This document shows positions 1 through 43,842 of a stretch of 44,276 nucleotides of DNA, piece by piece. The position numbers and the translations under genes are program-made. Under the pieces are notes generated by a model. That model worked only from the letters and a program-made list of their open reading frames with translations. It had not been told where the DNA came from and did no database searches. The stretch spans positions 1 through 44,276 of IMG/VR virus record IMGVR_UViG_3300047299_000293; one strand, written 5' to 3'. Each line of letters starts with the position of its first letter. Position 1 is the stretch's first letter. The stretch is from a virus.

Positions 1-918
1 TCAGCCACATTTACGCAACTTGCCTGGCTCAATGCGCATGGACACAGGCTTGTTGAGCATAGACAGCAGGATCATCGAGCGCCGTTCCGCATCGGCTGTT
101 TGGTAAATCGCCTCAATGCCAGCAAAGGGGCCATCGGTTATGATCACCTTGTCCCCTGCGGCAAAGAGCGCCTTGGGATTGGATTGCTGGAGCTGCTCAC
201 GCTCGTGCAGGTTCGTGATCAGATCGGTATCGACCTTGGCCGGGTGACCACCAAACTTGACGAGTTCACGCACGCCCAGCGTGGAGCGGATGGGTGACCA
301 GCTCTGGCCATTGCCTGTGGCATCCAATTGCACGAACACGTAGCTGGGGAACATGGGCTCGGCCACCACCGTCGGCTTGCCCCGGCGGGCCTTCTCCACA
401 TACAACATGGGCATGTAGCACCGAAAGTTCTGCCTCTGCAGGTTGGTGAGTGCCGTGTCTTCCTGCCTGCCCTTGGTATGGACCAGGTACCAAGCGTGGT
501 TAGGCTGCAGGCTCAGGTCAATGACTGCCGTGACTTTGGCTGGTGGCGCCTGAGCCGGTTCCTCTATTGGTATGGGGGCAGCACCCTTGACCTTGGGGGC
601 TGGCTTCAAGTCTTGCCGCTCGGCGGGTTTGAAGACCTCGGGGTTGCTTTCTATACCTTGGGTGTTGACACTCAGGTCGAGCGAGCGAGCAATGGCCCGG
701 ATCAGAGGCAGTGGCCGCTCGCGTTGCAGCACCTGCTTCAGCAGGGTCCGCAACTCGCGCTGTTCAAACGCCTCCAGGTCTTCCTGCCGGTAATGAACGG
801 ACAGCCCGTTCTGGAATATGGGCAGCCCATCGTCTTTCCAGCGCAGCTCCTGCAAGCTGCCGGGGGTCAGGCCCAAGCGCTCGGCAGCTTCTTGGGTCGT
901 AAGCAGCCGAGGAGTCAT
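1..918 (-). CDS. HTH-NusG/RfaH-like fusion, putative transcription antiterminator
   Basis: 305 aa, complete (TGA at the left edge). Residues 1-50 look like a MerR/excisionase-type helix-turn-helix (LLTTQEAAERLGLTPGSLQ, then YRQEDLEAF). A charged, Pro/Ala-rich linker covers about 60-135. Residues 141-240 match a NusG N-terminal domain (AWYLVHTKGRQEDTALTNL, then PMFPSYVFVQL), and 252-303 match a KOW domain (FAAGDKVIITDGPFAGIEAI). Specialised NusG paralogues such as RfaH bind RNA polymerase and suppress termination at chosen operons; here a sequence-specific HTH could supply the targeting. It lies beyond the terminator at 1041-1095, so it is probably its own transcript. A perfect palindrome at 937-952 sits just upstream. 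Domain calls are confident. The antitermination role, and whether it is phage or flanking host DNA, are inferred. Confidence 0.85.
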   Translation of the reverse strand: MTPRLLTTQEAAERLGLTPGSLQELRWKDDGLPIFQNGLSVHYRQEDLEAFEQRELRTLLKQVLQRERPLPLIRAIARSLDLSVNTQGIESNPEVFKPAERQDLKPAPKVKGAAPIPIEEPAQAPPAKVTAVIDLSLQPNHAWYLVHTKGRQEDTALTNLQRQNFRCYMPMLYVEKARRGKPTVVAEPMFPSYVFVQLDATGNGQSWSPIRSTLGVRELVKFGGHPAKVDTDLITNLHEREQLQQSNPKALFAAGDKVIITDGPFAGIEAIYQTADAERRSMILLSMLNKPVSMRIEPGKLRKCG

Positions 919-2584: not shown

Positions 2585-3943
2585 TCAGGCTGCGACAGTT
2601 CGGTCGTAGGCCAGGATCGGAATCACGCGTCTGGCACTTTGTTCCGGGACTCCATGGACCTGCCCGAAGATGTCTTTGCGATCGTCACGAAAGTCACCGT
2701 CGATGAAATATGGAATGCAAGCCGTTAGGTACTCGAGGGCTGCAGCCAAAAACGGCACGTTGTCCGAATAAGCTGCGTCGCAACCTGCATCCCACAGCGG
2801 TCCTTGCAAAAACATGCATGAACCCTTGCACAGTTGCAGCACCGGGCAACTGGGGCAATCGGGCCTGTGGCTCCAGTGCGTGGCGCTGCGCATCTTGACC
2901 GCCTGCAGGTTGGACAAATGGCCAATTTGGTGGGGCTGCCCATTGGGCGCAGTGGCTGCTGCGCTGACGTTCTGACAGGTGAGCACATTGCCGTGCAGGT
3001 CCACCGCCAGGTTGTTCAGCTTGTCCATGCCGCACTTTTGACCCAGCGAGGTTGCTGGTCGAGCTGAGCGGATAGACTGCACAAAGTCCATGATGCGCTG
3101 CTGCGCCACCGACATGCGCGAAGCCAGGCCCTGGCGCAGTTCTTTGTAGGCCAAGGCCCTGAAACGCACCTGGTCCTGCTTGGTTTGCAAGGTTGCAGCT
3201 AGGCCGCCTTCGTCATAGGGGTCAATGAATGCACCCTCCCCGATGTTCACATCCTGGCCAAACCGCTGCTGAATCCATGCCTGAATCTGCGCCCGGCTTT
3301 GATTGCTGGCATGGACCATGGCGTTGATGCTGATACGGCCCAGAGGATGCAAGCGGGCATACAGGTCCATGATGGCGGCGCATTTCTCAGGGTCGTTCAA
3401 TGGATCGGGTCCACGGGTCGACTGGCCCGGACCGTCGTGTGACAAACCCACAGAAAAACCCATGCGGTCGAGCCACTCGTTTTTCTGGGCATCGAGCAAG
3501 CTGCCATTGGTGATGACGCTGAACTGCGCGTCCGAGTACAAGTCACGCAGGCGTTCAGCCAACGGTTTGAGCGTCTTCCAGTACACCAGGGGCTCCCCGC
3601 CCCAGAACTCGATGCGCTCAGGTGGTTCAAGAAGCGCATCGGTCAGCTGACTGATAAACGGCTCGATGTCATCCGGGTTGCTCGAGTCCGCATACGGCAC
3701 AAAGCGCTGGTTGCAGTAACTGCATTCGTAGTTGCAAGACAGCCCCAGGCTGATCTTAAGGATGCGCACCTGACCCTTGCGGCCGGGTTGGCTGAACGAC
3801 ACCACCGTGGCATCCCGGAAACTGCCAGGCTGAACAGGCGCCACGGGTGTGCCGTCCTGCCAGGTCAGCGTGGACAACTGGTTGTTGTAGTGCAGCAAGA
3901 CTTTATGGCCATCTTGACGCAAGGCGTGAATCTGAAACTTCAT
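2585..3943 (-). CDS. Radical SAM/SPASM protein-modifying enzyme (maturase)
   Basis: 452 aa. The radical-SAM cluster motif CxxxCxxC is Cys70, Cys74, Cys77, and the SAM-contacting GGEP is at 115-118. The C-terminal SPASM motif is complete: Cys304, Gly318-x4-Cys323, then Cys363-x2-Cys366-x5-Cys372-x3-Cys376 and Cys388. This predicts two extra [4Fe-4S] clusters, as in anaerobic sulfatase-maturing enzymes and PqqE-type peptide maturases. Such enzymes modify peptide or protein side chains by radical chemistry (thioether, C-C, epimerisation, formylglycine). Residues 1-60 are an extra N-terminal region of unknown role. The start overlaps the upstream oxygenase stop (ATGA). No sulfatase, short precursor peptide or exporter is nearby. 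The substrate is unknown, with the Cys-rich fibre tip at 7048-7083 the best candidate. Confidence 0.92.
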   Translation of the reverse strand: MKFQIHALRQDGHKVLLHYNNQLSTLTWQDGTPVAPVQPGSFRDATVVSFSQPGRKGQVRILKISLGLSCNYECSYCNQRFVPYADSSNPDDIEPFISQLTDALLEPPERIEFWGGEPLVYWKTLKPLAERLRDLYSDAQFSVITNGSLLDAQKNEWLDRMGFSVGLSHDGPGQSTRGPDPLNDPEKCAAIMDLYARLHPLGRISINAMVHASNQSRAQIQAWIQQRFGQDVNIGEGAFIDPYDEGGLAATLQTKQDQVRFRALAYKELRQGLASRMSVAQQRIMDFVQSIRSARPATSLGQKCGMDKLNNLAVDLHGNVLTCQNVSAAATAPNGQPHQIGHLSNLQAVKMRSATHWSHRPDCPSCPVLQLCKGSCMFLQGPLWDAGCDAAYSDNVPFLAAALEYLTACIPYFIDGDFRDDRKDIFGQVHGVPEQSARRVIPILAYDRTVAA

Positions 3944-4548
3944 GAAAGGGCCTTTTGCGGCTCATGCAGCCGCGTTTTGAACACCAAGACAGGCCGCAGA
4001 TCACGGCAGGCACGGGAGATGGGGTTGACGCCATGGCGGATGTGCCCAGCAAAGAAAACCACCCGAGCGGGCGCGGGCATGACCGAGCCCAGCAGGCGAT
4101 CCTCCTGGTCGTAGAAAACTGTTTCTCCGCCCCACCCCGCTTGCCACTGCCGCACACCGTAGATCAACAGGGTCCTGTCCAGCGGGTGCTGGCTGTCGAT
4201 GTGGACATTGCCTTCATTGCCGTGGGTGTTGGCATTGGCGTAGACGCCATGGCACTGGGTCATGACGGGCAGTAGCAGCGCCCGCATGCATGACCGCCAA
4301 ACATCAGAGAGCACGCCCGCCTGCTGCTGAAGAAACTGCGGCGTGCAGCTGTAGTCTGAAGCGTGGTTGATGGGCCAGTCCCGACCCAATAATTCGCGGT
4401 GCCAAATCGGAAATGGCTCCGGCTCGTTTTTGTTGGTGATGCGGTGGTAACGGTACTGAAGGTGCTGCAGCCAATCGACGAGCTCCTGCGTTACGCCCGG
4501 ATCCAGAACGCCATCGGCGAATGAAACGGGACTGCGGGCGTCAAGCAT
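3940..4548 (-). CDS. 2-oxoglutarate/Fe(II)-dependent dioxygenase
   Basis: 202 aa from the ATG at 4548, with GGAGG 7 bases upstream. It has the prolyl-4-hydroxylase-like core: HID (His116, Asp118), a GGETVFYD strand (140-147), distal His172 in HIRHGVNPIS, and Arg185 thirteen residues later in RPVLVFKTR for 2-oxoglutarate binding. This iron site and spacing fit the 2OG-FeII_Oxy family, which hydroxylates amino-acid side chains in proteins or peptides. It is sandwiched between a second oxygenase-like gene (8-base overlap) and the radical-SAM gene (ATGA overlap), so it probably acts on the same target. The substrate is not known. Confidence 0.82.
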   Translation of the reverse strand: MLDARSPVSFADGVLDPGVTQELVDWLQHLQYRYHRITNKNEPEPFPIWHRELLGRDWPINHASDYSCTPQFLQQQAGVLSDVWRSCMRALLLPVMTQCHGVYANANTHGNEGNVHIDSQHPLDRTLLIYGVRQWQAGWGGETVFYDQEDRLLGSVMPAPARVVFFAGHIRHGVNPISRACRDLRPVLVFKTRLHEPQKALS

Positions 4549-5260
4549 GTCCTGCCTCCGGTTCTGCCACCGAGTGAAACTCGATGGCCAGGGTGTCGCG
4601 CGTCTGGGTGCGTAGCGGAAAGTAACCATGCGGCGTGCACAAAGGCATGGTTACAAGCAGGCCCGGCTGGGGCGTGATCGGGAAATGCACTGGTGTTTCC
4701 CAGGGCAACAGGGTTTCATTGGCCCGTTTAGCCGGATTCCCAATGACCATACAACCCGGCGTTCGAACATTGGGGCTGTCGGTCGTTGGGTAATCGGATT
4801 GCAAGAACAACACCGTATTGAGCCCAGCACGCGAGCTGGCAATGTGCTCAGCCACATGAAAGCCCGGCTGGCAGCGCATGATGTGGGCACTCAAACGGTA
4901 GCGGTATGTGCCCCAGATGGATTGCAGGTGCTCACGGACCACCGCCAACATGTCATGCAGACCATCCGCCGGGGATACGCCCCCCTGCAACAGGTCATGG
5001 CTGCGGCACTGCCAGGCTTCAGGCCCCCAGCGGTGCTCGGCGTCTTCCCGAAGGATGGCCTTTGCCAGTCGTTCAAGCCTTTCCGGCGACAAGCCAGAGG
5101 GCTGGACGTACACGGTGCTGGGCCATAAAGAAAAAACCCAACGCTGGTGTGACGTTGGGTGGTTCTCTGAGACGTCGGCTGATGCACCTGGGTGCGGACT
5201 GGCTTGTGTGGCCACCGCCATGATGGATGGCGGGGCGTGCGCTGATGCGTCAAATGACAT
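4541..5260 (-). CDS. Oxygenase-like protein, possibly 2OG-Fe(II) type
   Basis: 239 aa. The start at 5260 has AAGGAG and overlaps the upstream stop by 11 bases. Residues 1-40 look disordered. The rest resembles a double-stranded beta-helix oxygenase: GFHVAEHIASSRAGLNTVLF (134-152; His135, Glu138, His139), then GLLVTMPLCTPHGYFP (200-215; His211), and RDTLAIEF (221-228; Arg221). The distal His followed ten residues later by Arg is typical of 2OG oxygenases, but a clean HxD is not seen, so the first metal ligands are uncertain. A strong terminator-like hairpin (5131-5160) lies within codons 34-43. A cupin-like non-enzymatic protein is the alternative. Confidence 0.55.
   Translation of the reverse strand: MSFDASAHAPPSIMAVATQASPHPGASADVSENHPTSHQRWVFSLWPSTVYVQPSGLSPERLERLAKAILREDAEHRWGPEAWQCRSHDLLQGGVSPADGLHDMLAVVREHLQSIWGTYRYRLSAHIMRCQPGFHVAEHIASSRAGLNTVLFLQSDYPTTDSPNVRTPGCMVIGNPAKRANETLLPWETPVHFPITPQPGLLVTMPLCTPHGYFPLRTQTRDTLAIEFHSVAEPEAGHA
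5131..5160 (-). terminator. Terminator-like hairpin inside the oxygenase coding region
   Basis: Arms 5136-5143 and 5153-5160 (ACCCAACG/CGTTGGGT) are perfectly complementary over 8 bp with a 9-base loop. On the minus strand the stem runs straight into TTTTT, then CTTT. It lies about 100 bases into the first oxygenase gene. It could be an attenuator limiting expression of the two oxygenases and the radical-SAM gene, or the relic of a terminator at the edge of an inserted cassette. Confidence 0.6.
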
Positions 5261-6239
5261 GAATCACTCCTTGGGCCAGTGCGGTGACGGCCCCAAATCC
5301 AAATTGAAGGTGCAGGTTTTCTCCAGCACGCAGGCCCAGGGACAGGGCCCGAATTTGGGCTCTTCCTGCAGTCATCCGGACGCGTTGGTGTGGGACATAG
5401 CCCGAGACGGCGTGCACATTCAGCCAGGCATCGGCGGGCTCTGAAGCCCGGATTTCGAGCTCCACCCACTGGTCTGTAGCAACCTCTGACGGTGCTTGCA
5501 CGGTGAGCTTGGGCATGCGTTCGTGCAGCCGGGTGATGGTGTGGGCATGCTGGGTCAATGCGTCACTTGGCTTGGCATAAGTTACGTACTCATCCACTTG
5601 TAGGTTGGTCCAAAGTGGTCCGCCTGGGTGAGCGTTGATGCGCAGAACCATCTGGGCGCTGAGCGGCGATTCATGCCATGGCACCAGACATGACCCGGCA
5701 ACCAAGTGCATCTGACGCGCCTTGGTGAGTGGCAAAGCCAAGGCGGTAAAGCCCTCGCTGTCTACCCGGCTGCTGCGGGTGACCACATGGCGATTGAAGG
5801 GTGTCATGAAGCGCCAGGTATCTGTGCACAGCACAAACATCCACGCGGCCCAATCACTCAGGTGCTCCCCATACATGCGGGGCTTGGCGCGCATGGCCTG
5901 TGGGTCGAGGGCGATTTCATCGACCAGGCCCCACGGCACACCATCAATGGTCTCGGTGTGGACGGATGGCATGTCCAGTCTGACCGGCAAGATATAGGGA
6001 CTGGGCTGGCCGCGTCTGAGCAATGAATGCGCTTTGAGGATTGATGCGCCTAAAGGATGTGCCCGATACTGCTTTTGGGTCACTTGGCCGACCGAACGGT
6101 CTGGCCTGAGCGACTCCAATGGCTCCCACAGCCGCCAGGTCAGGCGATCCGTTTCAGCCAGGACCTCCACAGCCAGCGGCTGCGTGAATTCATCGACCCG
6201 CTGTACGAAGCGCGCACGGACAATTTCAGTACCGCTCAC
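5250..6239 (-). CDS. Unknown phage protein with C-terminal beta-rich domain
   Basis: 329 aa from a GTG start at 6239 that overlaps the previous stop (GTGA) and has GGAGG upstream; upstream in-frame codons lack a ribosome site. No family recognised. Residues 1-240 are mixed and Trp/Met-rich (WAAWMFVLCTDTWRFMTPF). Residues about 245-329 read like an Ig-like beta-sandwich (KLTVQAPSEVATDQWVELEI, then LRAGENLHLQFGFG). It belongs to the tightly overlapping gene chain leading to the oxygenases and radical-SAM enzyme, so it may be a structural tail component or an accessory to the modification system. No signal peptide or membrane segment is seen. Confidence 0.7.
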   Translation of the reverse strand: MSGTEIVRARFVQRVDEFTQPLAVEVLAETDRLTWRLWEPLESLRPDRSVGQVTQKQYRAHPLGASILKAHSLLRRGQPSPYILPVRLDMPSVHTETIDGVPWGLVDEIALDPQAMRAKPRMYGEHLSDWAAWMFVLCTDTWRFMTPFNRHVVTRSSRVDSEGFTALALPLTKARQMHLVAGSCLVPWHESPLSAQMVLRINAHPGGPLWTNLQVDEYVTYAKPSDALTQHAHTITRLHERMPKLTVQAPSEVATDQWVELEIRASEPADAWLNVHAVSGYVPHQRVRMTAGRAQIRALSLGLRAGENLHLQFGFGAVTALAQGVIHVI

Positions 6240-7030
6240 ACCCGCACCTCCAGCTCTTCGACACCGCTGAACCACTTGAAACCCAACTTGATCTTGGCCA
6301 GAGCACCAGCGTCTGCGCCAAAGAGCGTGACAAGGGCTTGCCCTTGTTCCAGGTTTGGTCGGCTGTTGCTCAGGGCTCCGGCTGTGGTGCTCAGAAGCAC
6401 CTGCCCTGACACCGGGAGCACCATCCCCTGATCATTGACCGCCGTGATGCGGATGCGCCGGGGATCACCACCTTCATCGACCAAACGAAACGAGGGAAAC
6501 GCCAGAGCCATGGCAACCGAATTGCTTTCCCACTCTTGGTCAAACTCAAAACCCATCACCTCGGTTTGAACCGCTTGGGGAGAGCACATGAGCACCAGGG
6601 AAGGCTCCAAACCCAACGGTGGAATCCAAAACTGGGCCAAGACCAGCATGGGCTGCTGGTTCCAGTACTGCCGAAACCCTTCTTTAGACAAGGCAGTTTG
6701 CGCGAACTTGTTGATCCACACCGGCTCGCGCTCCCCTTGACGCAGTGCAAAGAGCCAAACGGTGTAGGCATTGCCGGGATCTTGCGCGAAGTTCTGCAGG
6801 TCACTTACTGTGACAGCATGGACAAATGCGCTTTGATGGCCGACCAACATCGGCGCAGACGATTCATCAATGACCCGACCACTTTCATCCAAGGCTTGCT
6901 CAAAAGCAGGCGTGAGGTGTTCGATCAAGAAATCGCCCTCCACCTTCTGAATGCGAATGAGGTTGGTTCGGTGCGCGTTTGTTGTGCTCGCAGGGCTTTG
7001 CATCGGATAAGACATGCGTATGGTTTTCAT
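6236..7030 (-). CDS. Unknown phage tail-region protein with C-terminal Ig-like domain
   Basis: 264 aa from the ATG at 7030 (AGGGGAT upstream). The frame is open for a further 16 codons into the fibre gene, but those codons come from the Cys-repeat DNA. It starts 14 bases after the fibre stop. Residues about 180-264 resemble a bacterial Ig-like/filamin-type sandwich (RIRITAVNDQGMVLPVSGQV, then ALVTLFGADAGALAKIKLG). The N-terminal part is not recognised. A short stretch, LVDEGG followed by basic residues, also appears near the fibre C-terminus. It may be a fibre-associated or fibre-maturation protein; the function is unknown. Confidence 0.7.
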   Translation of the reverse strand: MKTIRMSYPMQSPASTTNAHRTNLIRIQKVEGDFLIEHLTPAFEQALDESGRVIDESSAPMLVGHQSAFVHAVTVSDLQNFAQDPGNAYTVWLFALRQGEREPVWINKFAQTALSKEGFRQYWNQQPMLVLAQFWIPPLGLEPSLVLMCSPQAVQTEVMGFEFDQEWESNSVAMALAFPSFRLVDEGGDPRRIRITAVNDQGMVLPVSGQVLLSTTAGALSNSRPNLEQGQALVTLFGADAGALAKIKLGFKWFSGVEELEVRV

Positions 7031-7044
7031 GAGCAAATCCCCTT

Positions 7045-7980
7045 TCAGCAGCCACAGCAGTTGCAATTGCAGTTGCAATTGGTCAGCACATTCACCGTGC
7101 GCAACCGCACCTGTCCACCTTCATCAACCAGTTCGTAGTCATGCCGGGTTGTGATGTTGCCGCTGCCATAGCAATTGATGGCATAACCAGTGCCTGCGCA
7201 ATTGGCCACTTGCTTAAAGAAGTAGTCGTGCAGCCAACCATAGTTGGCGGTCCACATGGAGCCGCCGTTGTTCATGTACATGTCCCAATTGCCGTCGGTC
7301 TTCAAAAACCCCATCAGGTTGCTGTTGACGTGCAGGTAACGGGTGCTGCCCTGGTCTGTGTCGTAAAAGTCGATCGTGGGCGAGGTGCTCTGTACGGTCT
7401 GACTGGGCAATGTCAGGCGCCCACTCATGCTGTCGCCAGTACGCGCTACCCGCCCCGACAAATCGATGTTGACCGTGGCGTTGCCGTTCGCGTCCGGACC
7501 ACCACCGTTAACCGAGCGGACAAAGGCCGAGGCATCGTAGCCGTCCAGGCGGTCTGCGTCCATCGCCTTGGCATTGATACCCAAATAGGCCGAGTTGTGG
7601 TTGTGTGAAGCTGAAGCAAAAGCACTGGCGTGCTGACCGTCGAGCAAGTCGGCATCGAGCCCGGAGCCCGCGCCATCCACCGTGAGCAGTTTGGCCAGCA
7701 CGTCCGCTGCTGTGTAAGCAGCCGCATTGAGCTTGACCGCGAACTGGGCATCGATCCCACTGGCCAGGTCCATGATGAAGCGCCAGTTGTCCGGGTTGGT
7801 ACCAATCAGCTGGTAAAGCTTGAGCTGGTCCGTGCGGTAGCACAGCATGCCCACTTGCTGGTTGGTCGTCGGAAATGTGGTGCCGCTGTTGCAGGAGATC
7901 GCCGTCTTGTCGTTGTTCAGGATCTCGATGAGCGAGTCAGACAGCGTGCGCGACGACGGTATGTCGGTGAAGTTTTGCAT
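7045..7980 (-). CDS. Tail fibre/receptor-binding protein with Asn-Cys-rich C-terminal tip
   Basis: 311 aa. The N-terminal part (NSGTTFPTTNQQVGMLCYRT, then LKLYQLIGT) is typical of a phage fibre attachment region. The middle has two fibre repeats of the LLDGQHASAF/RLDGYDASAF type, an HNHN motif like those near metal-binding fibre tips, and SGRVARTGDSMSGRLTLPSQ. The C-terminal region is Gly/Asn/Trp-rich with Cys263 and Cys273. The last twelve residues are Thr, four Asn-Cys pairs, then Cys-Gly-Cys. This tail is unlike ordinary fibre tips or chaperone domains. The five genes directly downstream form an overlapping chain ending in two oxygenase-like enzymes and a radical-SAM/SPASM maturase. Confidence 0.85.
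   Translation of the reverse strand: MQNFTDIPSSRTLSDSLIEILNNDKTAISCNSGTTFPTTNQQVGMLCYRTDQLKLYQLIGTNPDNWRFIMDLASGIDAQFAVKLNAAAYTAADVLAKLLTVDGAGSGLDADLLDGQHASAFASASHNHNSAYLGINAKAMDADRLDGYDASAFVRSVNGGGPDANGNATVNIDLSGRVARTGDSMSGRLTLPSQTVQSTSPTIDFYDTDQGSTRYLHVNSNLMGFLKTDGNWDMYMNNGGSMWTANYGWLHDYFFKQVANCAGTGYAINCYGSGNITTRHDYELVDEGGQVRLRTVNVLTNCNCNCNCCGC
7048..7083 (-). repeat. Asn-Cys repeat at the fibre C-terminus (12-bp DNA repeat)
   Basis: Codons 300-311 of the fibre gene. The DNA contains the 12-base unit GTTGCAATTGCA nearly twice, giving alternating Asn (AAC/AAT) and Cys (all TGC) codons, then Cys-Gly-Cys before TGA. Six of the last ten residues are Cys. TTGCAA is self-complementary, so the tract could expand or contract by slippage. 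In sequence composition it resembles the core of a ribosomally made, post-translationally modified peptide. Confidence 0.8.
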
Positions 7981-8020
7981 GGTGAGTGGGTGGGTAAGTG
8001 ACTGAGGTACATGGGAGCTA

Positions 8021-9373
8021 TCAGTACCCCTGAGCGATCCAGGTGAAGGTGCCGGTCACGCGAGCGCCAGCGGTGTTTTCTAAAACTGCCGTGAAGCCTG
8101 TTCGGGTGACTGCACTGGATAGGCGCGGGATGGCGACCACCGTGCCGCCCTTGTGGGTCATGGTCACCTCGGGCGGCACCCTAAAAATTCGGGAAAAGCC
8201 GATAACAGCCTCTGCCTGCGCATCGATGATCTGCACAGTGCCCCGGTCAAAGACATCGGGCACATCCACCGTCACGCGCAGCGCGTCAATAAAACCCCGG
8301 TCGGAGTTTCTGGACTTCAAGATGGCGCGGAATAAGGCGCGCTGGTAGGTGTAGTCACCCTGAATGAAGTCCCGGAAATCCGTGTAGCCCGGGGGATGGC
8401 CCGCTTCGACGATGCTTGCAAAGTCGGCCTCGGTGATCTCAGTGCTGGCCACGATCATGTCGCTGATCACACCGTTGGCGTGGCGGCGGTACTGCTCAGC
8501 GAGCGCCAAGGCTTCATGGGCCTTGAGGCGCATCGCCCGGTGCAGGGCATCCGAGACACCCAGCCCTTCTTGCAAGAGCCGCCTGTACGCCACTGTGCGG
8601 CCCAAGGTTTCGGCAAACGCCAGTGCCTCGGCCACCTGTTTGACGGATTGGCGACTGAGCTGATCGCTCGTGGTGAATGCCTCAGGGACTGGCTTTTGAA
8701 GCCGTTTGGCGGTCTGATCGCTCACAGCCAAACCCTCGCTGATGCGCAGGATGAAGGCGATCAGGTCGTAATAAGTTTCGGCAAAATTCAGCGCTTCGGA
8801 GACCTGTTTGCTGAAGCGTTGATCCAGGTCATCGGTCAAAGCCACCTTTTCAGTGAATGCTTTGGCAGATACCCGCGCGGATACCGATGACACCTGCAGG
8901 TTCTCAGCATGCTTTTGGCGCATCTGCCGCGACAGGCCTTCGGTGACAGACAGGCCTTCTTGCAGGGCTTTGGCCACCAAGCGGGCCAAGCCGTCCAGCG
9001 TTTGGAGGTTTTCTTGAACAGACTTGCTGCTCGACTTGGCAACGCCCTCAGTCACCCCAATCGACTCAACCCATCGCAAAACATAGGCGATCAGGTCGTA
9101 GTAGGTGTCGGCAAACCCGATTGACTCCGTCTTTTGCAGCGTGGCCTGATGACGCCGGGTTTCTGCAAGGGACAGAGTTTCGCCAATACGCTTGCCATGC
9201 TGAAGACCTGACGTGTGCGTCCAAGCCAGCGTGGCAGCCACTGCGACCACATAGACAGCGGGGTAAGCCGTGAGCCACGATTTGCCCGCACTGGCGCTAT
9301 GCCAAGTGAAACTGGCATTGGCCCAGGTGTAGCGCGGCCCTTGGGACTCGCCTACGGTGACCGTCTCGACCAT
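8021..9373 (-). CDS. Phage tail protein with about 13 tandem 18-residue repeats
   Basis: 450 aa. Residues 63-305 are about 13 tandem units of 18-20 residues with pattern xxExLxxx(E/D)xLxRxxxK, for example LQEGLSVTEGLSRQMRQK and VSEALNFAETYYDLIAF. Three units carry a longer variant with YYDLIA or TVAYRR. Residues 1-60 are Trp-rich (YTWANASFTW). The C-terminal region (335-450) begins PPGYTDFRDFIQGDYTYQRALF and ends in a beta-rich domain (FTAVLENTAGARVTGTFTW) plausible for virion assembly. Position between J-distal and fibre genes suggests a shaft-like or spacer virion protein. It starts 5 bases from the preceding gene's stop. Exact role unknown. Confidence 0.75.
   Translation of the reverse strand: MVETVTVGESQGPRYTWANASFTWHSASAGKSWLTAYPAVYVVAVAATLAWTHTSGLQHGKRIGETLSLAETRRHQATLQKTESIGFADTYYDLIAYVLRWVESIGVTEGVAKSSSKSVQENLQTLDGLARLVAKALQEGLSVTEGLSRQMRQKHAENLQVSSVSARVSAKAFTEKVALTDDLDQRFSKQVSEALNFAETYYDLIAFILRISEGLAVSDQTAKRLQKPVPEAFTTSDQLSRQSVKQVAEALAFAETLGRTVAYRRLLQEGLGVSDALHRAMRLKAHEALALAEQYRRHANGVISDMIVASTEITEADFASIVEAGHPPGYTDFRDFIQGDYTYQRALFRAILKSRNSDRGFIDALRVTVDVPDVFDRGTVQIIDAQAEAVIGFSRIFRVPPEVTMTHKGGTVVAIPRLSSAVTRTGFTAVLENTAGARVTGTFTWIAQGY
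8459..9187 (-). repeat. Tandem 18-20-residue protein repeats
   Basis: DNA encoding residues 63-305 of the preceding protein: about 13 diverged units, most exactly 18 codons, a few 19 or 20. The conserved positions are Glu at 3, Leu or another hydrophobic at 5, an acidic residue near 9, a basic residue near 13 and often Lys at 17. DNA identity between units is low, so duplication is old or under selection at the protein level. Confidence 0.7.
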
Positions 9374-42023: not shown

Positions 42024-42502
42024 AGCCCCGATCCATTACCCCGCGCGAGCAGCGCAGCCAAGACAAGCTCGATGCCGTCCAGCGCCAGGTTGCCGACCTA
42101 CACGACCTCAAAATGTCCGAGCTCTGGCAGCTCTGGGATATGCACTTCTCGCGCCGCCCGGCCCATCCCAACCGAAACTTCCTGACATCGCGGCTGGCCT
42201 ACCGACTCCAAGAACTGGCCTTTGGCTCTTTACCGCAATCAACCCAGGAAAGACTGGCCGACTATGGCCAGCACCTCTCCAAGATCAAGAGCAAGACCCC
42301 GGCCAAAGCGGTGGCCATGCCGGGGGCCACCCTAGTGCGGGAATTCGACGGCAAGGAGTACAGGGTGCTGGTGCTGGCCGATGGCCGCTATGAATACAAC
42401 CGCCAGATTTACGGCAGCTTGTCCGCAATCGCCAAAACCATCACCGGAACGCAATGGTCCGGACCGTCCTTCTTTGGCCTCAAATCCACGGGGGCTGCAT
42501 GA
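42020..42502 (+). CDS. DUF2924 protein
   Basis: 160 aa. Conserved DUF2924 blocks: LHDLKMSELWQLWDMHFSRR, RNFLTSRLAYRLQELAFGSL, LVREFDGKEYRVLVLADGRY, SLSAIAKTITGTQWSGPSFF. DUF2924 genes very commonly sit directly upstream of serine recombinase genes in proteobacterial prophages and islands, suggesting a recombination accessory. Coupled on both sides by ATGA overlaps. Confidence 0.9.
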   Translation: MKPRSITPREQRSQDKLDAVQRQVADLHDLKMSELWQLWDMHFSRRPAHPNRNFLTSRLAYRLQELAFGSLPQSTQERLADYGQHLSKIKSKTPAKAVAMPGATLVREFDGKEYRVLVLADGRYEYNRQIYGSLSAIAKTITGTQWSGPSFFGLKSTGAA

Positions 42503-43842
42503 ACATGCCAACGCCCAAACGGTGTGCGGTGTACTGCCGCGTCTCCTCCGACGAAAGGCTGGACCAGTCCTTCAACTCGATCGATGCCCAGCGTGAGTCG
42601 GGCCTGTCCTTTGTTATGAGCCAGCGCGATGAGGGCTGGGTGCCGGTGCAGGACACCTATGAAGACCCGGGTTACTCGGGCGGGAACATGGAGCGTCCGG
42701 GGCTCAAACGCCTGATGGCGGATATCAAGGCCGGACGGATTGACATGGTGGTGGTCTACAAGATCGACCGCCTCTCGCGTTCATTGGCCGACTTTGCCAA
42801 GATGGTGGAGGTCTTTGACAAGCACCAGGTCAACTTCAGCTCGGTGACCCAGCAGATCAACTCGGCCACTTCGACTGGGCGTTTGATGCTCAACATGCTG
42901 CTGTCGTTTGCCCAATTCGAACGCGAGGTGACCGGCGAGCGCATCCGCGACAAGATTGCCGCCTCCAAACGCAAGGGCCTGTGGATGGGTGGCCCCGTGC
43001 CGCTGGGTTATCGCGTGGAGAACCGGTTGCTGCTGATCGATCCGAAGGAGGCAGAGACCGTGAACTGGATTTTTGACACCTACGCCAGCACGGGATCGAC
43101 CACGCAGATGGTCCAGCAAATGAAGGAACAAAATCACCTGACCAAGACGGGGCGGAACTTTTGCAAGCAGTCGCTGTACAAGATTTTGCAGAACCGGGTG
43201 TATCTGGGCATGCTGGCGCACAAGGGCCAGTACTTTGCCGGTGCCCACCAGCCCCTGATCGATCAAACCCGATGGGACAAGGTGCAACAGTTGATGGTGC
43301 GCACCAGCGAAGAGAAGACCCAGGCCACCTGGTCCCTGAAGGCACGCACACAGTTCCTGCTACGCGGCCTGATCTACAGCCCAGGCGGGGATCTGTACCT
43401 GCCGATGGCCACACAGAAGAAATCCGGAAAGGTCTACCGCTACTACGTGCACAACCGGAAAATGCACGAAGGTGCCAGCCAGAGCAATATTTCCAATCAA
43501 CCCGCCGAACCGGTGGAGCAAGAGGTCACGCGACAGGTTCTGGATTTCCTGCGCTCAGGCTCGATGCTCAACAAATATTGGCACCAGATACAGACCTTCA
43601 ACCCTGGCATTCCCGAATCCCAGGCTGTCGTACTGATCCTGCAGCGCACCGCGCAAATCTGGGACAGCTACTTTGATCAGGTCAAAAGCCACATCATCCG
43701 CAGCTTGGTCGAGCGGGTCACGCTGCACGACGACGACACGATCGAGGTCAGCTGGCGCACCCATGAGTGGTTGCCCCTGCTCGAGGCCATGAAGCCCAGA
43801 ACGGTAGGTGCAGACAAATTGGAAATGGAGATGCACGCATGA
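42499..43842 (+). CDS. Large serine recombinase/integrase
   Basis: 447 aa from ATG 42499 (ATGA with DUF2924). Resolvase domain: CAVYCRVSSDE with nucleophile Ser16 (or Ser17), YEDPGYSGGNMERPGLKRLM, VVVYKIDRLSRSLADFAKMV. Then a recombinase domain (GLWMGGPVPLGYRVENRLLL, KTGRNFCKQSLYKILQNRVY) and C-terminal region with FLLRGLIYSPGG but no full four-Cys zinc ribbon. It is smaller than phiC31-type integrases. It probably integrates and excises this phage; the attP has not been located. Confidence 0.93.
   Translation: MNMPTPKRCAVYCRVSSDERLDQSFNSIDAQRESGLSFVMSQRDEGWVPVQDTYEDPGYSGGNMERPGLKRLMADIKAGRIDMVVVYKIDRLSRSLADFAKMVEVFDKHQVNFSSVTQQINSATSTGRLMLNMLLSFAQFEREVTGERIRDKIAASKRKGLWMGGPVPLGYRVENRLLLIDPKEAETVNWIFDTYASTGSTTQMVQQMKEQNHLTKTGRNFCKQSLYKILQNRVYLGMLAHKGQYFAGAHQPLIDQTRWDKVQQLMVRTSEEKTQATWSLKARTQFLLRGLIYSPGGDLYLPMATQKKSGKVYRYYVHNRKMHEGASQSNISNQPAEPVEQEVTRQVLDFLRSGSMLNKYWHQIQTFNPGIPESQAVVLILQRTAQIWDSYFDQVKSHIIRSLVERVTLHDDDTIEVSWRTHEWLPLLEAMKPRTVGADKLEMEMHA

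Follow-up and report, generated by a model that had tools for sequence, protein, structure and literature searches.

A phage-encoded radical-SAM/SPASM enzyme with a probable substrate in the cysteine-repeat C terminus of the tail fibre

The window, meaning the whole stretch of DNA analysed here, is a 44,276-base virus record whose minus strand carries genes for terminase, portal, head protease, major head protein, tape measure, minor tail proteins and a lambda-J-like tail protein, while an integrase of the serine-recombinase type (matching phrog_95 and DNA invertases) lies on the plus strand at 42454-43842; the structural genes together with the integrase indicate a temperate siphophage. The J-like tail protein, a tail fibre, a radical-SAM (rSAM) enzyme, a small ORF and a glucosaminidase follow one another on the minus strand, so that the preliminary description was right to place the enzyme in a late operon between tail and lysis genes. 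Its view that such a position is almost unknown did not hold, since in this lineage the position is usual: homologues of the small ORF (2116-2511) and of the glucosaminidase occur in 27 and 25, respectively, of 80 sequence sets (79 loci plus the window; best 80 of 82 relatives), and a protein family for the enzyme, PHROG 1802, already exists. The small ORF is a holin candidate by position only. An RfaH-like protein with an N-terminal HTH_17 domain (window 1-918, minus strand; TIGR01955, 174 bits, cut-off 144.5; HTH_17, 28.6 bits, cut-off 27) adjoins the phage lysis genes and may be a phage regulator or a host gene. Between fibre and enzyme lie two members of an accessory family with an Ig-like domain at the C terminus ('IgTail'), a probable 2OG-Fe(II) oxygenase and a PF13640 oxygenase, giving the following features.

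2585-3943, minus strand: radical-SAM/SPASM enzyme, 452 aa (PF04055, TIGR04085, phrog_1802, invariant Cys, structure model, dN/dS)
3940-4629, minus strand: 2OG-Fe(II) oxygenase (PF13640, 30.9 bits, cut-off 27), distantly FlmC-like, accessory
4541-5260, minus strand: probable 2OG-Fe(II) oxygenase of a PF13759-linked family (homologues in other loci)
5250-6275, minus strand: IgTail accessory protein 1, start codon uncertain (family found between tail gene and rSAM gene in 45 of 78 clusters)
6236-7030, minus strand: IgTail accessory protein 2 with a C-terminal Ig-like domain (structure model, weak Ig-like/intimin matches)
7045-7980, minus strand: tail-fibre-like protein, 311 aa, probable substrate (PHROG tail-fibre matches, relatives L081-L153)
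7048-7080, minus strand: C-terminal fibre tail NCNCNCNCCGC, probable modified stretch (sequence, association tests)

The fibre reads from 7980 to 7045, upstream of the enzyme in the same operon, and has the C terminus TNCNCNCNCCGC. The start of the second IgTail protein was set at the ATG that follows a frame overlapping the fibre tail, and its model has a mean pLDDT of 81.6, with Ig-like/intimin matches that are weak. The ORF at 3940-4629 overlaps the start of the rSAM gene by 4 bases and scores 52.8 bits on NF052475, below the cut-off of 240; no tie of FlmC, FlmE or OhkG to a radical-SAM paper was found in the open-licence literature. Its neighbour at 4541-5260 has no Pfam match itself, and on the weak ground of blastp linkage to a family that includes an ORF of locus L223 with a PF13759 match (30.6 bits, cut-off 27) it is probably a member of that family. 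Among the scanned neighbours of the rSAM gene no sulfatase was found, and no peptidase or transporter was identified.

The rSAM gene is intact and under selection, as the preliminary description had held. Its ORF runs from an ATG at 3943 to 2585 on the minus strand, the plus-strand reading of the same interval being interrupted by stops. In an alignment of 53 sequences, whose members other than the window enzyme are 35-89% identical to it, the CX3CX2C core (Cys70/74/77), the GGEP motif (residues 115-118) and the seven SPASM cysteines (Cys304, 323, 363, 366, 372, 376 and 388) are invariant in 53/53, the latter spaced as C-x18-C with G-x4-C and then CX2CX5CX3C-x11-C. Scores above the cut-offs of PF04055 (30.8 bits, cut-off 29.5) and of the SPASM model TIGR04085 (33.7 bits, cut-off 27), together with the core motif and the seven-Cys series, place the enzyme in the radical SAM/SPASM superfamily, and the PHROG 1802 profile, which has no curated cut-off, matches residues 60-394 with an E value of 2e-57. 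Values of dN/dS between 0.06 and 0.13 against eight relatives indicate purifying selection. The predicted structure has a mean pLDDT of 93, with residues 1-60 modelled at high confidence as three beta-strands and no helix and therefore not as a winged-helix RRE. This extension, lacking RRE-like helices in the model, may still serve as a recognition element.

Profile searches against maturase subgroups identified a SPASM enzyme of the peptide-maturase type, and placement in a curated maturase family was tried and rejected, every NCBIfam maturase cut-off among the matches listed being missed. The best curated profile is that of PapB (NF047865), which is matched by 53/53 alignment members and gives 57.2 bits for the window enzyme against a cut-off of 340. 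Fold matches to anSME, ChlB, CteB, TigE and SuiB are moderate (query TM about 0.5). The best of these is anSMEcpe (PDB 4k36-4k39), whose family profile TIGR03942 gives only 43.3 bits for the window enzyme against a cut-off of 349, and whose segment CGMNGTCTC carries extra Cys that the window enzyme lacks. This maturase targets a Cys or Ser residue within a complete protein. CteB, a maturase of SCIFF-type thioethers (PDB 5wgg/5why), shares the SPASM maturase fold (sequence-profile E value 7e-12) but shows about 15% identity in the fold alignment and 29.5 bits on TIGR03974 against 425; its N terminus is an RRE. The profile of the quinohemoprotein amine dehydrogenase maturase (TIGR03906) is likewise matched by 53/53 members, though the window enzyme scores 36 bits against 453 and the substrate differs. 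That maturase cross-links a structural protein subunit and not a peptide product. A fold search of the window enzyme gave no separate RRE match, and model and profile searches showed an RRE neither in the enzyme N terminus nor in the IgTail protein; one may reside on another protein. No leader was identified. Canonical RiPP biosynthesis, with a short leader-bearing precursor, proteolysis and export, differs from the present case, in which the candidate substrate is a 311-aa fibre.

The preliminary description overlooked what is probably the substrate, the Cys-repeat tail of the tail fibre. We scanned loci encoding relatives of the enzyme for a motif of at least three X-Cys units, at least two of them with Asn or Asp, within 8 kb upstream on the rSAM strand, covering 77 viral loci found with the window enzyme (best 80 of 82 relatives) and 79 bacterial loci from a profile-guided scan of bacterial genomes (best 80 of 126), with strict counts confined to loci having at least 4 kb upstream (70/77 viral, 63/79 bacterial). 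Among these best-scoring relatives, a same-strand (Asn/Asp/Ala-Cys)n tail lay upstream in 68/70 strict viral loci (71/77 overall) and in 53/63 strict bacterial loci (61/79 overall), leaving 2 and 10 strict loci, respectively, with no motif. The motif was found downstream of the enzyme in 0/39 viral and 0/57 bacterial loci, on the opposite strand in 1/70 and 2/63, and in 1/80 unrelated viral loci subjected to the same scan. Phages do carry auxiliary metabolic genes, and the enzyme and oxygenases might produce a small molecule or act on a protein of the host, lying near the tail through a shared late-gene location; we consider this very improbable given that enzymes this divergent pair specifically with a single tail motif, that no motif lies downstream, and that profiles and folds are those of peptide maturases.

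The reverse search started from the tail and was blind to the enzyme. IMG/VR DNA encoding NCNCNC(N/D)C yielded 78 frames (best 80 of 119 stretches), 54 of which had a same-strand match to the rSAM profile. Restricting these frames to usable C-terminal tails, namely closed frames of at least 60 aa that carry the motif no more than 25 aa from their end and are followed by 2 kb or more of sequence, left 49/78, and 48/49 had a profile match alongside; the 48 represent 31 clusters at an identity of 80% and 20 at one of 60%. The single strict miss, L263, belongs to a sequence that ends 2.4 kb after the tail gene, and the distance from tail to rSAM frame is about 2.5 kb in L257 and L260, which resemble it. 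A control search with NSNSNS(N/D)S found an rSAM gene at 0/77 frames (best 80 of 120 stretches; 30/77 strict-usable). The loci are interrelated, and forward and reverse counts are therefore not independent trials; the contrast between the NC-tail search and the Asn-Ser control is extreme despite this kinship.

Starting from relatives of the window fibre (best 80 of 94), 73/79 loci encode at least three consecutive X-Cys units, and the remaining six comprise five cut by a contig end and L115. In L115 (8001-8942 and 10121-11674) the rSAM gene is split over three frames and one of its SPASM cysteines has become Tyr, and the tail reads NCNCDRNCGC with one Cys lost, which in this single case would amount to a joint decay of tail and enzyme. 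L151 retains the tail and has no rSAM gene within 3.9 kb, while eight further tailed fibre-relative loci that lack an rSAM match have less than 2 kb downstream. NC tails are also borne by other proteins, paired with more distantly related rSAM enzymes that score 94-174 bits on the profile (for example L241/L293, L239/L288, L308 and L310). In L241 and L293 the fibre-like proteins are very small (NHTHIFFDDYSTACNCNCNCNC), three to four same-strand rSAM-profile matches lie within about 7 kb, and the L293-type protein has no relative in the isolated-phage collection. A single rSAM gene in L036 is preceded by a tandem array (8017-9096) of three short fibre-like ORFs that all have the C terminus TNCNCACDCL.

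The anatomy of the tails was compared in 78 representatives, one per rSAM cluster at 80% identity, in all of which both genes are present by construction. The residue X of the X-Cys units is N in 266/386 cases, D in 46 and A in 43. Tails open with N as X in 70/78 and consist of four or five units in 53/78. Between motif and C terminus lie 0-9 aa in 67/78 and 17-18 aa in two, and nine proteins carry an extension of 161-214 aa, so that the tail either closes the protein or is followed by a long extension which, where tested, is a Hint domain. In Achromobacter phages JWF and 2-1 the first residue of this domain is the Cys that follows the repeat (PF05203, 47.5 and 46.6 bits, cut-off 32.1), with weaker matches below the cut-off in L114 and L074, and the other long extensions resemble the Hint-type ones by eye. 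A fibre Cys repeat running into a Hint domain above the cut-off was seen in L079 (9835-11286) and L080 (9796-11238), and one running by eye into a Hint-like domain in L182, L224, L227, L228, L232, L291, L302 and L310. Hint domains self-cleave. If they do so after the repeat, the repeat again becomes the C terminus, and their placement suggests possible self-cleavage at the fibre tip. As for the fibre bodies, blastp single linkage at E 1e-3 joins 60/75, which led us to drop the idea of many unrelated fibre-body families and leaves a claim of six groups only.

A hexanucleotide microsatellite that has no protein function would also produce AACTGC-like units, and in 17/78 tails the NC units are indeed identical at the DNA level. 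Elsewhere codons are mixed, close relatives differ by synonymous codons with the protein unchanged, and both the C-terminal placement and the association tests speak against it; we give this origin of the tail practically no credence and, from the codon mixing, regard it as ruled out. Enzyme and Cys tail are almost always found together, tail first and on one strand, and both are conserved as protein.

The genes accompanying this pair vary across the 78 clusters, with IgTail in 45, the PF13759-linked oxygenase in 28, a JWF gp029-like family in 11, a second rSAM gene in seven and a PF13640-like family in six, and tail composition shows no clear trend with accessory enzymes. No gene separates tail gene and rSAM gene in 8/78 clusters, and the minimal system is therefore tail plus rSAM enzyme. 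Some phage fibres have metal-binding HxH tips, and the Cys tail, with its metal-binding-like CxCxC pattern, could be a metal- or disulphide-bonding tip while the enzyme modifies another protein of the operon, for example IgTail, which adjoins the fibre in those 45 clusters. We find this improbable, given that IgTail is missing from 33/78 clusters, that tail and enzyme persist in the eight clusters where nothing intervenes, and that the blind search with the tail finds the enzyme.

We therefore propose, from the sequence comparisons above and with a probability of roughly 0.8, that the rSAM enzyme is a phage-encoded maturase acting, in RiPP-like fashion, on the (Asn-Cys)n C-terminal tip of the phage's own tail fibre. 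The occurrence of an enzyme relative in a YcaO peptide-maturation locus (below) supports this assignment of the substrate, and the tail without an rSAM gene in L151, the motif-less loci, the distant maturase cut-offs and the lack of an RRE or leader weaken it. Which reaction the enzyme would catalyse is best approached through PapB, in which three cysteines (C352, C370 and C421) form auxiliary cluster I (AC1) and four form AC2 (PMC10470005), so that ten cysteines are arranged as three of the radical-SAM cluster, three of AC1 and four of AC2, as in the window enzyme. By analogy, Cys304/323/376 of the window enzyme would form AC1 and Cys363/366/372/388 AC2. The PapB AC1 is held to bind the substrate thiol (PMC10470005), and PapB bridges Cys and Asp at separations of 0-6 (PMC9413430), which makes bridges between near neighbours chemically precedented. 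The systems differ in that the RRE domain of PapB-type maturases is not seen in the first 60 residues of the modelled window enzyme, and in that the PapB substrate is a CX3D peptide and not an alternating N/C fibre tip; CX3D/E motifs are absent from the tails of the 78 representatives, in which X and Cys alternate.

Fibre-tip modification would take place ahead of virion assembly. A tail Cys would bind the open site of auxiliary cluster I, a 5'-deoxyadenosyl radical would abstract hydrogen from the neighbouring Asn, Asp or Ala, and a Cys thioether would form, the reaction being repeated along the tail in the manner of sactipeptides and ranthipeptides. In some lineages, 2OG-Fe(II) oxygenases would add hydroxylations, and the resulting fibre tip, at the end that contacts the host, would be rigid and non-reducible. 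Thioether chemistry is favoured on three counts, namely the constancy of Cys, a thioether maturase as the nearest profile and an apparently open AC1, and we give it an even chance. Epimerisation of the epipeptide kind, C-C cross-linking or oxidation of Asn/Asp carbons, with the Cys left free or disulphide-bonded, would be alternative reactions on the tail. Strict residue alternation would be in keeping with an epimerase that acts processively, fold or profile matches of the window enzyme include EpeE, an rSAM epimerase, and cyclophane maturases, and many loci are accompanied by 2OG oxygenases; we nevertheless think such a reaction rather unlikely, because Cys is constant while X varies as counted above, and because both the three-Cys AC1 arrangement and the best profile point to a thioether maturase. 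Stiffening of the tip or contact with the receptor is offered tentatively as the purpose of the modification, with the odds leaning somewhat against it; a rigid or reduction-proof tip, receptor contact and trimer locking are all speculation as to purpose.

In the rSAM tree (84 rows, leaving out the no-motif loci L196, L218 and L226), phage and bacterial-genome copies interleave, and the enzyme is not placed inside a host clade with a known substrate, the outcome that the preliminary description had named as its refutation. Three tail-less Variovorax copies form a supported clade with the phage copy L302, whose fibre has a long extension, and close copies (91-94% identity) occur in genomes and bins, Limnohabitans and other Burkholderiaceae among them (best 80 of 126). 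Among 50,697 phage records, matches of at least 80% coverage were found only in Achromobacter phages JWF (two records) and 2-1, whose enzymes are 47-49% identical to that of the window and have an NC tail upstream in both. PHROG 1802 ('radical SAM domain-containing protein'), which includes JWF gp030, is the same family as the window enzyme, and its members are annotated only as radical SAM or sulfatase-maturating enzymes, with no substrate named. At L225, a tail-less relative adjoins one protein that combines nitroreductase and YcaO domains (SagB/SagD-like, below NCBIfam cut-offs), together with a short frame ending GSSSDCSAISPLPQ, a candidate precursor; frames of like kind lie upstream of tail-less relatives in L230, L231, L218 and L221 (Variovorax and others), and these five loci likely represent a bacterial peptide-maturation cluster.

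The rSAM genes of two other phages were also inspected. Campylobacter phage CP220 (L467), with another rSAM gene, has no NC tail within 8 kb of it, and a frame from 15899, about 7 kb from that gene, encodes a protein ending in dense Cys repeats (CDYCYNCVICENCGECEDCDHCNNCDDCFGCYG). In Erwinia phage Asesino (L468, 5441-9302), the adjacent rSAM genes gp181 and gp180 come after the small Cys-repeat proteins gp185 and gp183, which have the block HY(D/N)CGG(T/S)CSWTCS in common, gp185 having 20 Cys in CSG-type repeats; Asesino may be another phage pairing of rSAM enzyme and Cys repeat, of a different repeat type. Radical-SAM cassettes have been noted in the tail-fibre region of the pelagimyophage host recognition cluster (PMC7029224), and the accessible part of that study proposes no substrate, Cys tail or mechanism, the likeness to the present system being one of genome location.

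Searches of open-licence PMC papers turned up none on a radical-SAM enzyme acting on a phage fibre, and within that literature we found no description of fibre-tip Cys-tail maturation by a phage rSAM enzyme as a kind of virus-particle modification. The furthest-reaching reading, a new class of virion-protein maturation in which phage rSAM/SPASM enzymes, aided in some lineages by 2OG oxygenases, would convert a modular (Asn-Cys)n appendix of many different fibres into multiply thioether-bridged, non-reducible tips, possibly stapling the chains of the trimer and with Hint domains of some phages exposing the tip as a new C terminus, falls a little short of even odds in our estimate and would bring RiPP chemistry to the receptor-contact end of the virus particle. 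Achromobacter phage JWF is an isolated phage that carries the system, and the proposal is testable there. If it is true, a group of phage rSAM genes whose annotation stops at 'radical SAM domain' or 'anaerobic sulfatase-maturating enzyme' would gain a substrate, and enzymatic covalent modification would join the ways of building a tail-fibre tip, with a compact pair of enzyme and tag, the latter a few C-terminal Asn-Cys dipeptides, that may modify full-size proteins.
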